A DNA stretch of 7,729 nt. Source: Accumulibacter sp. (GTDB taxonomy: Bacteria; Pseudomonadota; Gammaproteobacteria; Burkholderiales; Rhodocyclaceae). Shown piece after piece: positions 1 through 4,356 of the stretch; positions within the stretch are counted from its first letter, which is position 1; the number at the start of each line of letters is the position of its first letter. The stretch spans positions 1 to 7,729 of the forward strand of contig DPSD01000709.1 in NCBI GenBank assembly GCA_003538495.1, given 5' to 3'. The notes under the pieces were generated by a model. That model was not told the DNA's origin and ran no database searches. It saw only the letters and a program-made list of their open reading frames with translations. The position numbers were made by a program, and so were the translations under genes.

Positions 1-485
1 GGAAAGACGTGGTTCACCACCTCGGGCGAAGTGCTCGGCCCGGTCATCATGGGCAGGCCGATTTGCGGGTTTACGGTGTAGTCGACCTCCGAGCCGCCGT
101 CGCGGCGACCGCTCAGGTTGACCATGATCAGGTCCGGACGATGCGCCTTCAGCGCCTCGTAGGAGAGCCAGCCCCTGGCCGGGAAGTTGGTGCTGAACAG
201 CCCGGCGTCGTCGCCGGGCGCACAGATCAGCCGGGTCAGCAACTCCTGTCCGCGCGGCTGGCGAAAGTCGACGGCGATCGAGCGCTTGCCTTTGTTCAGG
301 CCGGCCCAGAAAAGGCTGTGCCGACCATCATTGGTCAGCGGCCAGCGCCCGTAATCGAGCCCGCCGCCGATCGGGTCGAAGCGGATCACATCCGCGCCGA
401 GCTGCGCCAGGGTCATGCCACCGAGCGGCGCGGCGACGAAAGCCGAGCCCTCGACGACGCGCAATCCCTTGAGAATTCCTTCCAT
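1..485 (-). CDS. mct: 2-methylfumaryl-CoA isomerase (mesaconyl-CoA C1-C4 CoA transferase), N-terminal part, runs off the left edge
   Basis: This family III CoA-transferase relative is read on the minus strand from the ATG at 485-483 to the window edge (161 complete codons). The N-terminus (MEGILKGLRVVEGSAFVAAP, then GGMTLAQLGADVIRFDPIGG) and the later VNPQIGLPMMTGPS segment are what I recall as typical of Mct rather than of ordinary CaiB/BaiF transferases. In the 3-HP bicycle Mct moves CoA within one molecule, turning mesaconyl-C1-CoA into mesaconyl-C4-CoA, the substrate of Meh encoded nearby. The sequence stops just before the position where the catalytic Asp of the family is expected (about residue 165), so activity cannot be judged. 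The start is supported by the family N-terminus. The ribosome site is weak: AAGGA lies 12 bases upstream. It follows smtB on the same strand after 169 bases. The alternative is another CaiB/BaiF-type transferase. Confidence 0.85.
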   Translation of the reverse strand, partial: MEGILKGLRVVEGSAFVAAPLGGMTLAQLGADVIRFDPIGGGLDYGRWPLTNDGRHSLFWAGLNKGKRSIAVDFRQPRGQELLTRLICAPGDDAGLFSTNFPARGWLSYEALKAHRPDLIMVNLSGRRDGGSEVDYTVNPQIGLPMMTGPSTSPEVVNHVF

Positions 486-619
486 ACCAGTCACCAATCC
501 TTGCTGCGCGGGCAGCGGTTGTGGGTAAGTCGGCGGGCCACCGACGCGTCCCCTTGCTTACTGGCGGGTTCCGGTCCGGGGACTCCCGTCCTGCGAGCAG
601 CGGCTGGCAGCGCGCTCAC

Positions 620-646
620 GGCGGTCGCCGCATCGGCGTCACCGCC
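620..646 (-). other. Bulged hairpin just downstream of the smtB-like gene
   Basis: An outer 6-bp stem (GGCGGT/ACCGCC) stacks on an inner 5-bp stem (CGCCG/CGGCG) with a 3-base loop and a 2-base bulge. It begins 9 bases past the smtB stop codon, in the 169-base gap before mct. No T-tract follows it on either strand, so it is not a canonical intrinsic terminator. It could be an mRNA 3'-end stabiliser or an attenuating or processing structure between smtB and mct. The structure is seen in the sequence; the function is a guess. I see nothing else in the rest of the gap. Confidence 0.45.
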
Positions 647-654
647 ACTGGGCT

Positions 655-1881
655 TCAGATGACACGCTTCCGGCGGAGCTCGTCGATCTCGGTCGCGTTC
701 ACGCCAAGCAACTCGGAGAGCACTTCGTCGGTGTGTTGCCCGAGCCGCGGGCCGAGGTGCTTGATGCGACCAGGCGTCGCCGACAGGCGGGGCAATACCG
801 ATGGGACGATGACCGTCTCGCCAATATCCGCCTCGTCGATCGCCACCAGATTGCGCCGGGCGTGAAACTGGCGGTCACCGAAAATGTCGGCAATGCTGTT
901 CAAGGGTCCGGCAGGGGCGCCGGCGGCGAAGCAGCGGTCGAGGATCTCCTCGCGGCGCAGCGAACCGCACCAGTCGCGGACGATTTCGTTGACATCGTGG
1001 CGGCTTTCCAGCCGCGTTTTTTGGTCGCCGTACACGTGCGGCGCCGCCAGTTCGGGTCGTTTCATGGCAATCGCCAGGCGCTCGAAGAGCTTGTCGGTGA
1101 CGCACGATATGGCCACCCACTTGCCGTCTTCCTTGGTCGGGAAATGGCCGTGCGGACAAGCGAAGTCGTTGTGCGTTGGCCCGTGCCGCTCGCGGATCCG
1201 GCCGAACATGGCGTAGGCCGGCGCCAGCTCGTCGGTGCAGCGAAACACCGATTCGTACAGGGCGGCGTCGATGTATTGTCCTTCGCCGGTGCGATCGCGG
1301 TGGCGCAAGGCCATCAGGATGCCGATGCAGCCATACAGGCCGGTGAGATAGTCGCCGAGAGTGGTCGAACCCGGTGTGACCGGCGTTCCCCGCGGCATTC
1401 CCGAGAGAAAGGCGATGCCGCCGACCGCGTGCGCGACTCGGGCAAAGCCCGGCCGGTCGCGGTAGGGGCCGGTCTGGCCGTAGCCGGTGACGCGCAGCAT
1501 GATCAGGCGCGGGTTGATGGCGTGCAGCACGTCCCAGCCGAGGCCCCACTTTTCCAGGGTTCCCGGACGAAAGTTTTCGCACAGCACGTCCGCTTTCTCG
1601 ATCAGCTTCTTGAACAGCTCGACGCCTTCTGGAAGGTGCAGGTCGATGGTCACCGACTTTTTGTTGCGCGCTTCGCTAAGCCAGGCCAGCGTGTCCTTGC
1701 GTTTGGTCGGCGTCCCGAAGTAGCGCATCGGGTCGCCGCCCTTGGGGTTTTCGACCTTGATCACATCGGCGCCGAATTCGCCCAGAATGCTGGCGCTGTA
1801 GGGCGCGGCGATGACCGTCGCGGCGTCGATCACGCGAATGCCATCGAGCGGCAGCTTGGTCTCGGCTTGATCAGTGCTCAT
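655..1881 (-). CDS. smtB: Family III CoA transferase, probable succinyl-CoA:L-malate CoA-transferase subunit B
   Basis: The 408-residue product is a full-length family III (CaiB/BaiF/formyl-CoA transferase) enzyme. Visible landmarks are the N-terminal Rossmann-like start LDGIRVIDAATVIAAPYSA, the NFRPGTLEKWGLG block (residues 103-115) and VTGYGQTGPY (131-140). The catalytic Asp is expected at D177 in LGDYLTGLYG, which corresponds to Asp169 of formyl-CoA transferase. In Chloroflexus, SmtA and SmtB together transfer CoA from succinyl-CoA to L-malate or citramalate in the cytosol. It starts 24 bases after the smtA-like stop codon, so the two are almost certainly co-transcribed. By eye they are more than half identical, which points to paralogous subunits. 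The ribosome site is modest (GAAAGA, 6 bases before ATG). The A/B assignment rests on order and length. Itaconate or another dicarboxylate is a possible alternative acceptor. Confidence 0.8.
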   Translation of the reverse strand: MSTDQAETKLPLDGIRVIDAATVIAAPYSASILGEFGADVIKVENPKGGDPMRYFGTPTKRKDTLAWLSEARNKKSVTIDLHLPEGVELFKKLIEKADVLCENFRPGTLEKWGLGWDVLHAINPRLIMLRVTGYGQTGPYRDRPGFARVAHAVGGIAFLSGMPRGTPVTPGSTTLGDYLTGLYGCIGILMALRHRDRTGEGQYIDAALYESVFRCTDELAPAYAMFGRIRERHGPTHNDFACPHGHFPTKEDGKWVAISCVTDKLFERLAIAMKRPELAAPHVYGDQKTRLESRHDVNEIVRDWCGSLRREEILDRCFAAGAPAGPLNSIADIFGDRQFHARRNLVAIDEADIGETVIVPSVLPRLSATPGRIKHLGPRLGQHTDEVLSELLGVNATEIDELRRKRVI

Positions 1882-1905
1882 GGGGAATCTTTCGCAGTGG
1901 CCTGT

Positions 1906-3273: not shown

Positions 3274-3356
3274 GACCCTTCCTCCCAGCAGAAGAGCCAG
3301 CCCAAGGACTCGACTTCCGCATCGCGCGTCAGTTCGTGTGCCGACGCAATGCGCAC

Positions 3357-3388
3357 AGTATACGGGCAAATGGCGCCACCTGATGCAA
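3357..3388 (-). promoter_or_regulatory. Possible promoter for the smtA-smtB-mct run
   Basis: On the minus strand a good -10 hexamer, TATACT (3362-3357, five of six to consensus), lies in the divergent gap. The nearest -35-like element, TTGCAT (3388-3383), is 20 bases away, longer than the ideal 17, so any promoter here may need an activator. A start near 3350 would give a leader of about 76 bases before the smtA ATG. The hexamers are seen; promoter activity is inferred. Confidence 0.3.
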
Positions 3389-3432
3389 GCTTCTGACGCT
3401 ATCGGGGGCTGCTGCGCGGTCTGCGTACCAAC

Positions 3433-3461
3433 TTGAGTTTGTCCGCCGGCTGTGCTGTACT
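3433..3461 (+). promoter_or_regulatory. Candidate sigma-70 promoter with extended -10 for the meh-like gene
   Basis: TTGAGT (3433-3438, -35) and TGTACT (3456-3461, -10) are separated by exactly 17 bases. TGC directly precedes the -10, giving the extended -10 motif. Each hexamer matches consensus at four of six positions. Transcription would begin near 3468, leaving a leader of about 34 bases to the ATG at 3502 with GAAAGGA (3487-3493) as ribosome site. The leader length and ribosome site support this over other matches in the 228-bp divergent region. This is inference from motif and spacing only. Confidence 0.4.
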
Positions 3462-3501
3462 CCCCGAACGCTCTCCGGAAAACCCTGAAAGGATCCGCCC
3501 G

Positions 3502-4356
3502 ATGACCGAGACGACAACAGACTTCGCAGCATGGATTGGCCGTCGCGAGAGCACCGACGATGATCTGGGAGTGGTGCCGGCGCTGGCAGCGGCAGCGACG
3601 CTCGACGACACCACGACCCGTTTCGATAAAGGGAGCGCGCTGCCGCCGCTGTGGCATTGGTTCTATTTTCTTGCGCGGGCGCCGCAGGCGCAGCTCGACG
3701 TCGACGGGCATCCGCAGCGCGGCGGCTTCATGCCGCCGATTCCCTATCCGCGGCGGATGTTCGCCGGGGCGCGGATGCGCTTCCACCGGCCGCTGCTGAT
3801 CGGGCAGCCGGCGCGCCGTGAAGCGGTCATTCGCGACATCCGGCAGAAGTCCGGGCGTTCGGGCTCGCTGGCCTTTGTTTCGGTGCTCTGCAGCTATTAC
3901 CAGGATGGCGTGCTGTGCATTGAGGAGGAGCAGGACATCGTCTACCGCGAGCCTGGCGCCGCGGTCGCCCGCCCGGAAGTGATCGGCTGGCCGGCGGTGG
4001 AGGAGGGCGCTTGCGCGCGCGTCGTGACGCCGGACCCGAAACTGCTGTTCCGCTTTTCGGCGCTGACCTTCAACGCCCACCGGATTCACTACGATCGGCC
4101 CTACGCGACAAAGGAAGAGGGCTATCCTGGTCTGGTGGTGCACGGGCCGCTGACCGCCGTGCTGCTGATGGACCTGCTGCGACGGCATGAGCCAAGGGCA
4201 GTACGCGCATTCAGCTTCAAGGGACTGGCGCCGCTCTTCGACCTGGCGCCGTTTCGCTTGGTCTGCAGCATTCGGGACGGCCAGGTTTCGCTGGCGGCGC
4301 ATGCGCCGGACGGTGTAACCGCCATGAGCGCGAGCGCCGAACTCGCGCCGAACTGA
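3502..4356 (+). CDS. meh: Mesaconyl-C4-CoA hydratase-like protein (3-methylfumaryl-CoA hydratase), double hot-dog fold
   Basis: The 284-residue product resembles the FAS1-like/HTD2-type dehydratase group, with an N-terminal hot-dog half (about 35-150) and a C-terminal MaoC-like half (about 160-284). The first half carries PPLWHWFYFLA (48-58) and MPPIPYPRRMFAGARMRFHRPL (77-98). The second carries TFNAHRIHYDRPYA (189-202), followed by YPGLVVHGPL. The H196/D198 region and the HG at 214-215 are the likely active-site and CoA-binding positions. In the 3-HP bicycle Meh hydrates mesaconyl-C4-CoA to (S)-citramalyl-CoA in the cytosol, directly after the Mct step. The ATG at 3502 is chosen over the in-frame TTG at 3433 because GAAAGGA lies 8 bases upstream and the TTG falls in the candidate -35 element. 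Divergent smtA and nearby mct support the role. The homologous itaconyl-CoA hydratase (Ich) of itaconate catabolism is the main alternative. Confidence 0.8.
   Translation: MTETTTDFAAWIGRRESTDDDLGVVPALAAAATLDDTTTRFDKGSALPPLWHWFYFLARAPQAQLDVDGHPQRGGFMPPIPYPRRMFAGARMRFHRPLLIGQPARREAVIRDIRQKSGRSGSLAFVSVLCSYYQDGVLCIEEEQDIVYREPGAAVARPEVIGWPAVEEGACARVVTPDPKLLFRFSALTFNAHRIHYDRPYATKEEGYPGLVVHGPLTAVLLMDLLRRHEPRAVRAFSFKGLAPLFDLAPFRLVCSIRDGQVSLAAHAPDGVTAMSASAELAPN

Follow-up and report, generated by a model that had tools for sequence, protein, structure and literature searches.

How Candidatus Accumulibacter (Ca. Accumulibacter) converts polyhydroxyalkanoate to glycogen and balances its redox state has long been asked in work on phosphorus removal; published models use glycolysis, branches of the tricarboxylic acid cycle, the glyoxylate shunt and the ethylmalonyl-CoA (EMC) pathway (here and below, publications are cited for the accessible part of their text). 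Positions 1 to 7,729 of contig DPSD01000709.1 from assembly GCA_003538495.1 (the window, meaning this whole stretch; GC content 64%) carry three CoA-transferase genes and a hydratase gene divergent from them, and we aimed to establish which pathway these genes serve and from which substrates it could be fed. We are fairly confident that they are part of a second-cycle cluster of the 3-hydroxypropionate bicycle (3HPB), mch-mcl-mct-smtB-smtA / meh, which would act as a heterotrophic tail leading from mesaconyl-CoA to pyruvate. The host is a Ca. Accumulibacter species, a betaproteobacterium as an earlier note on this DNA had supposed, and is distinct from the 28 genomes of the genus compared here.

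Genes of the module and their products

The window contains the following module genes.

1 to 485, minus strand: mct, partial; starts with ATG at 485 and is cut by the left window edge after 161 codons; predicted 2-methylfumaryl-CoA isomerase (partial match to TIGR04253)
655 to 1881, minus strand: smtB, full-length; PF02515 (E 4e-115), SmtB group in the tree
1906 to 3273, minus strand: smtA, full-length; PF02515 (E 1e-109), SmtA group in the tree
3502 to 4356, plus strand: meh, predicted (S)-citramalyl-CoA-forming mesaconyl-C4-CoA hydratase of the MaoC/FAS1 type; PF13452 (E 6e-7), 3HPB side of the Meh tree

The earlier note had described two full and one partial family III CoA-transferase genes with a divergent hydratase gene, the module ending at 4356. 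The end is correct, and the description agrees with three PF02515 matches on the minus strand (for the partial mct at 3-497, E 3e-24) and the PF13452 match on the plus strand; given their lengths and scores, these open reading frames are real and not due to chance. For meh, 3502 is a more likely start than 3433, where the open reading frame begins, as an alignment of 19 upstream regions has a ribosome-site-like AAAGGA and an ATG at 3502.

The partial Mct scores 337 bits with TIGR04253 over model positions 1-159 of 403, the whole-protein cut-off of 725 being unreachable for a truncated gene, and yields 309 and 319 bits with the solved Mct structures 8apq and 7xkg. For Mct, a set of residues, including the catalytic Asp165, has been named in the structure paper PMC9813914, which also names the Accumulibacter enzyme. 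All six of these residues compared (Leu43, Arg47, Arg75, Phe101, Arg104 and Tyr136) are conserved in the window, and position 74 is Phe instead of the Ile of that set. The codon for Asp165 would fall just past the window edge; in the relative L004 (L numbers denote retrieved loci, G numbers genomes) Asp is present at this position.

Asp177 of SmtB and Asp227 of SmtA, the latter in the LGDYL context common to SmtB, are aligned with the Asp of solved family III enzymes. SmtB remains under the cut-offs of the curated models for succinyl-CoA:mesaconate (NF041294, 230 of 700 bits), formyl-CoA (TIGR03253, 227 of 504) and carnitine (NF002914, 146 of 413) transferases, and SmtA scores still lower on all three. 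Thus, an itaconate, oxalate or carnitine transferase identity is ruled out by the family scores together with the trees described below. Meh scores 239 bits both with itaconyl-CoA hydratase 8khg and with 8huc, the segment FSALTFNAHRIHYD being aligned. The Mcl proteins of relatives match the HpcH/HpaI aldolase structures 4l7z and 6kin (663 and 682 bits), the former of which we take to be the tri-functional lyase of Chloroflexus aurantiacus.

Phylogenetic placement

If the module belonged to an itaconate-type cluster, its proteins should be grouped with the enzymes of such clusters. This label was assigned from the gene neighbourhood and the presence of Paraburkholderia xenovorans, a carrier according to PMC12290011. 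In the Meh tree, a branch with the value 98 (branch values are starred unless marked otherwise) separates the 3HPB-type hydratases, including that of the window, from the itaconate-type ones, and the window Meh lies inside the Accumulibacter group (100); the chosen outgroup rows do not fall on one side of any branch. SmtB (95) and SmtA (96) form distinct groups, each with members from Chloroflexota, Gemmatimonadota and other taxa; both window proteins lie within the Accumulibacter part of their own group, and the itaconate-type transferases are outside (100). This Smt tree is a quick one under a fast model, where long branches meet. In the Mct tree, the Accumulibacter group (99) has Chloroflexus/Roseiflexus as its sister, with an unstarred value of 91. 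Length and repeat filters had dropped 1 of 94 rows from the Meh tree, 5 of 105 from the Smt tree and 4 of 67 from the Mct tree. Thus, the phylogenetic check proposed in the earlier note places all four proteins with 3HPB enzymes.

The meh locus was compared with the best 80 of 572 confirmed loci. Among these, the identity of meh relatives is 66-82% in Accumulibacter and 63-70% in Chloroflexota, the other taxa being Gemmatimonadota, Burkholderiales, Rhodospirillales and Gammaproteobacteria, and the order mct-smtB-smtA / meh is found in numerous loci of Accumulibacter, Roseiflexus, Chloroflexus, Gemmatimonadota and Burkholderiales. In the tree, the path from the window's smtB and smtA is shortest to those of L002, with 94% identity over 406 columns for smtA (the two SmtA are joined at 99); the highest smtB identity in the tree alignment is that of L007 (93%). 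In gene order, the nearest of the 28 genus genomes is G022, where meh (84% identical), nirS (89%) and the Fpr-like gene follow each other as in the window.

Other Betaproteobacteria (Methylibium, Rubrivivax and similar) cluster with Gemmatimonadota, at 97 in the case of Meh and at 99 for both SmtB and Mct, hence the betaproteobacterial carriers need not have a single origin. Chloroflexota were considered as the donor of the Accumulibacter module and set aside: the sisterhood in the Mct tree is unstarred, and in the Meh and Smt trees the branching between Accumulibacter, Chloroflexota and the group of Gemmatimonadota with other Betaproteobacteria is weakly supported at best. SmtB relatives at 78-82% were also seen in Competibacter/Competibacteraceae and Contendobacter, which are glycogen accumulators, among 120 of 1768 matches listed.

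The module across Accumulibacter and its proposed function

In the 28 genus genomes, for which completeness is not stated, so that absences may reflect assembly gaps, Meh was found in 26 at E<=1e-60. In 25 of them the identity is 67-84%; the 26th match (G024, 47%) groups with itaconate-type hydratases. As G024 (L096) has mct and smtAB and only this distant Meh relative, it may represent either a replacement or an assembly gap. Mct occurs in 27 genomes (not in G017), and so does Mcl; Mch was found in the Mcl/Mct stretches of 26 of 27 genomes, being absent from the retrieved stretch of G024. The earlier note had suggested to look for mcl and mch to the left of the window, and in most relatives, including the syntenic stretch L081 of G022, both adjoin mct; outside the window, the same arrangement would be expected in its own species. 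The mct of Accumulibacter ACC003 (G002; L002 5751-6966) is in two frames, owing either to a sequencing error or to a recent break.

Isocitrate lyase is present in all 28 genomes. A propionyl-CoA synthase query, identified as such by its AMP-binding and enoyl-hydratase domains and a weak dehydrogenase match, was found in none of the 28, up to 16 candidates being scored in each, and the Chloroflexus positive control was found. This argues against the full autotrophic 3HPB in the genus and for a heterotrophic tail, in accordance with the co-assimilation that the earlier note had preferred over autotrophy. Thus, nearly all genus genomes carry the predicted tail from glyoxylate and propionyl-CoA to pyruvate and acetyl-CoA, with no sign of the first-cycle propionyl-CoA synthase.

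In the proposed scheme, Mct would shift the CoA of mesaconyl-CoA intramolecularly from C1 to C4, Meh would hydrate mesaconyl-C4-CoA to (S)-citramalyl-CoA, and Mcl, encoded by a neighbouring gene outside the window, would cleave the latter to pyruvate and acetyl-CoA. Two interchangeable inputs may be considered. In one, Mcl would condense glyoxylate with propionyl-CoA and Mch would dehydrate the product; glyoxylate could come from isocitrate lyase or from malyl-CoA via SmtAB, and propionyl-CoA from propionate or polyhydroxyvalerate (PHV). In the other, for relatives with EMC genes, mesaconyl-C1-CoA would be formed from acetyl-CoA or polyhydroxybutyrate (PHB) and CO2. As isocitrate lyase is ubiquitous in the sample, the glyoxylate and propionyl-CoA feed is possible wherever Mcl and Mch occur, and G022, which has neither smtAB nor a Ccr match, is compatible with it. 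This feed is favoured by older Accumulibacter proteomics reporting glyoxylate-cycle enzymes (PMC2289847); transcripts of aceA are reported from two type I species and hardly at all from the type II species A. phosphatis (PMC12604563).

Just past mch, many relatives (L001, L002, L004-L007, L081 and others) have porAB-like 2-oxoacid:ferredoxin oxidoreductase genes, a possible further link between acetyl-CoA and pyruvate; in L002 their scores are under the respective cut-offs.

Repeated absence of smtAB

The claim of a second-cycle module stood as to gene identities and placement; a limit to it concerns malate activation by SmtAB. The smtAB pair was found in 14 of the 28 genus genomes (smtB copies 89-92% identical to that of the window) and gave no match in the other 14. 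On the tree of Mct, Mcl and Mch for 27 genomes (G017 was left out, having no Mct, and G024 entered without Mch), at least 6 changes of the smtAB state are needed, and well-supported branches force 5 of them. As this is a tree of the module and not of species, it alone cannot separate gain from loss; loss is the likelier direction, since the position between mct and meh is common to Chloroflexota.

Remnants of the pair were observed in several relatives. In the meh-mct gap of G022, the closest syntenic relative of the window, an open frame (L081 6793-7245) starts as SmtA-like, with about 100 residues of the conserved part, and has the C-terminus of SmtB at its end, the scar of a single deletion. 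Similarity to the promoter side of smtA extends over 215 and 148 bases in L001 and L084 and over approximately 40-45 bases in L010, L057 and L063; in L006 and L013 nothing matches it. Thus, malate activation by SmtAB is, as judged from gene content, dispensable in the genus, and its repeated absence hints at which of the two halves of the bicycle is the important one beyond Chloroflexota. We did not meet this loss in the open-licence literature, an earlier mention in subscription papers being possible.

Linkage with genes of the ethylmalonyl-CoA pathway

Ccr was found in 23 of the 28 genus genomes, and by coordinates ccr lies on the same contig as meh and at most 9 kb from it in 17 of these 23. 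In the others it is 8 kb from mct (G011), 23 kb from meh (G004) or on another contig (G009, G010, G015 and G024). Downstream of meh, L002 contains a DUF6986/HpcH-type gene, a 559-aa acyl-CoA dehydrogenase gene, a mesaconyl-CoA hydratase-type gene, a mutase gene, a MeaB-like gene (under its cut-off) and ccr (TIGR01751, 559 bits with a cut-off of 379). By our reading, the dehydrogenase is a putative methylsuccinyl-CoA dehydrogenase, given its length and context, and the mutase, of the methylmalonyl-CoA mutase family, is by context a putative ethylmalonyl-CoA mutase. The orientation of the EMC cluster and its side relative to meh vary among the relatives, hence its linkage with meh has outlived rearrangement; due to shared descent, the cases are not independent. 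We did not meet a joint EMC-3HPB cluster in the open-licence literature, and subscription papers may mention it.

The EMC cluster is headed by the DUF6986 gene (HpcH/HpaI-like, 480 aa; L002 11502-12944 and equivalents), a candidate lyase or thioesterase; searches against NCBIfam (E 1e-20) and the PDB (E 0.1) gave no match for it.

Outside the genus, we considered 39 genomes hand-chosen from the same best 80 of 572 loci. Ccr was found in 10 (L021, L032, L035, L039, L040, L044, which is a Defluviicoccus, L049, L050, L053 and L058); the 8 Chloroflexota gave no match, and the retrieved stretches show no EMC cluster next to meh. The retrieved stretch contains no smtAB in 6 of the 10 Ccr-bearing genomes (L032, L039, L044, L049, L050 and L058) and in 7 of the 29 Ccr-less ones (L036, L038, L048, L051, L052, L056 and L060), L031 having only a piece of the pair. 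If smtAB and ccr were mutually replacing inputs, they would seldom be missing together. Among the 27 Mct-bearing genus genomes, smtAB is missing from 13, Ccr from 4 and both from 1 (G022), versus 1.9 expected under independence; with no signal of replacement, this possibility was rejected. In one Caballeronia genome (L078 15716-18626), an Mct-like gene (58%) comes after a gene that shares 52% identity with the acyl-CoA dehydrogenase of the EMC cluster, possibly reflecting the use of methylsuccinate via a C1 route.

Alternative explanations

Several observations weigh against the heterotrophic 3HPB tail. The mcl and mch genes, Mct Asp165 and any ccr of the window's species would lie outside the sequence at hand, Meh and the itaconyl-CoA hydratases are homologues, a look for expression or enzyme data on the cluster in Accumulibacter found none, and the absence of smtAB from half of the genomes means that the module is not maintained as a single unit. 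The EMC linkage raises the possibility of a particular form of the tail, where the main input in most Accumulibacter would be EMC-derived mesaconyl-C1-CoA and malate activation would be optional. PHB-derived crotonyl-CoA would be carboxylated and converted to mesaconyl-C1-CoA, from which Mct, Meh and Mcl would produce pyruvate; in sum, acetyl-CoA, CO2, 2 NADPH and quinone would give pyruvate by the "reductive citramalyl/ethylmalonyl-CoA pathway", with neither ferredoxin nor glyoxylate involved. Besides the frequency and proximity of ccr, the further EMC genes of L002 with their several orientations among relatives and the missing smtAB, this is consistent with Ccr in a quarter of the chosen genomes outside the genus, one of them a Defluviicoccus; with several other Defluviicoccus genomes, where the EMC pathway is reported as complete and the glyoxylate shunt is described as absent (PMC9041414); and with upregulation of EMC genes at low phosphate, chiefly in type I Accumulibacter (PMC12604563). 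However, in the window itself the 3.4 kb after meh contain no ccr, being occupied by nirS, and G022, which has the same order, gave no Ccr match, as did three further Mct-bearing genomes; the EMC cluster has a hydratase and a lyase-like gene of its own and could reach glyoxylate and propionyl-CoA alone; and the 29 Ccr-less genomes outside the genus include all 8 Chloroflexota. We therefore regard the EMC-derived input as a serious possibility with somewhat less than even chances. That Accumulibacter, and perhaps Defluviicoccus, naturally run this reductive route, smtAB decaying since mesaconyl-CoA is EMC-derived, is proposed a shade more tentatively still.

The steps of the tail are reversible. 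In the opposite direction, pyruvate and acetyl-CoA could be converted via citramalyl-CoA and mesaconyl-CoA to glyoxylate and propionyl-CoA, the latter going to PHV as a redox sink of the anaerobic phase. The porAB-like genes past mch in many relatives would agree with this, and propionyl-CoA supply and redox balance are treated as the anaerobic problem of these organisms (PMC12604563), but for Chloroflexus the described direction is citramalyl-CoA cleavage (PMC8307300), and we consider reverse operation unlikely. Degradation of itaconate or methylsuccinate by a cluster of the Ict-Ich-Ccl type would account for the score of Meh with a solved itaconyl-CoA hydratase, the families being homologous; it is highly improbable and already contradicted by the trees, where both Meh and the two Smt proteins are separated from the itaconate-type groups, and the remaining transferase, Mct, acts intramolecularly. 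The heterotrophic tail from mesaconyl-CoA to pyruvate remains our preferred reading. Present in nearly all genus genomes and mostly beside EMC genes, it may provide a further, CO2-fixing connection between acetyl-CoA and pyruvate.

Promoter region and neighbouring genes

The remaining features of the window are as follows.

3274 to 3501, no strand assigned: predicted smtA/meh divergent promoter region; short elements recurring in many Accumulibacter
4601 to 4614, plus strand: putative FNR/Dnr-type box TTGACCTGGGTCAA; exact match to TTGAYNNNNRTCAA; upstream of nirS, outside the module
4693 to 6438, plus strand: nirS, cytochrome cd1 nitrite reductase, neighbour; PF02239 (517 bits) and a cytochrome c domain
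6640 to 7455, minus strand: ferredoxin--NADP(+) reductase-like (Fpr-like) gene, neighbour; NF008178 168.5 bits, under its cut-off of 390

In the 19 aligned upstream regions, candidate promoter elements picked by eye are AGTATA facing smtA, which is absent from L010, L057 and L063, and CTTGAGTTTG with GTGCTGTACT facing meh. The palindromic box, presumably of the FNR/Dnr regulator type, ends 78 bases ahead of the nirS start; a role of such a box at meh or smtA was rejected, as the sole exact match precedes nirS and the three one-mismatch matches are intragenic. NirS has the haem site CAGCH at residue 84. Its copies are 88-90% identical in 9 genus genomes, the highest identity being that of G017 (90%), and across the genus the matches fall into approximately three identity bands (88-90%, 72-75% and 60-62%). 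A 75%-identical relative of the Fpr-like gene adjoins nirS in G022. Scans of the window for tRNA genes and Rfam families gave no matches.

Comparison with known systems

The closest known system is the 3HPB cluster of Chloroflexus and Roseiflexus, where the genes, their order and the divergent meh are all as in the window, with 63-89% protein identity over the compared genes. In C. aurantiacus the locus tags are 0173 for mch, 0174 for mcl, 0178 for smtB, 0179 for smtA and 0180 for meh (PMC3150298, which prints mct with the tag of mcl, 0174); together with the recurrence of this order in Chloroflexota loci, they agree with the similarity of gene order mentioned in the earlier note. Unlike these systems, Accumulibacter is betaproteobacterial, propionyl-CoA synthase gave no match in its 28 genomes, the smtAB state shifts repeatedly, and EMC genes adjoin in most relatives.

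The presence of 3HPB genes in Accumulibacter is already published: a partial 3HPB has been reported for Kentron, Ca. Thiosymbion, Competibacter and Ca. Accumulibacter (PMC6593406), and the assimilation of organic substrates proposed there for Kentron is akin to the heterotrophic tail. The accessible part of that paper names Accumulibacter as a carrier and does not describe the cluster, the smtAB loss or the EMC linkage. Thus, the window taken alone is a modest addition, one further carrier of a cluster already reported, and the joint cluster of the genus is a variant of it.

The itaconate/methylsuccinate cluster of Cupriavidus and Pseudomonas (PMC12290011) shares the conversion of mesaconyl-C4-CoA via citramalyl-CoA to acetyl-CoA and pyruvate, but uses a C4-specific methylsuccinyl-CoA dehydrogenase and an itaconate CoA transferase, with no Mct in the scheme as accessible. 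In glycogen- and polyphosphate-accumulating organisms similar to Accumulibacter, acetyl-CoA is assimilated via the EMC pathway (PMC8956781, PMC12604563), which is reported for Contendobacter as well (PMC8956781); both papers take it to propionyl-CoA (the pathway also yielding glyoxylate), unlike the pyruvate tail considered here, and mesaconyl-CoA is also assigned to glyoxylate and dicarboxylate metabolism (PMC8956781).

The reductive citramalyl/ethylmalonyl-CoA pathway appeared in 2021 as an artificially designed route converting acetyl-CoA, CO2, 2 NADPH and quinone to pyruvate, with a value of -39 +/- 9 given for the module (PMC10521678). It is a design on paper, and the word "Accumulibacter" is absent from its accessible text, whereas in Accumulibacter the corresponding genes adjoin. 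If the EMC-coupled route indeed operates in Accumulibacter, it would be a natural occurrence of this designed pathway and would open a way from stored PHB to the synthesis of glycogen.

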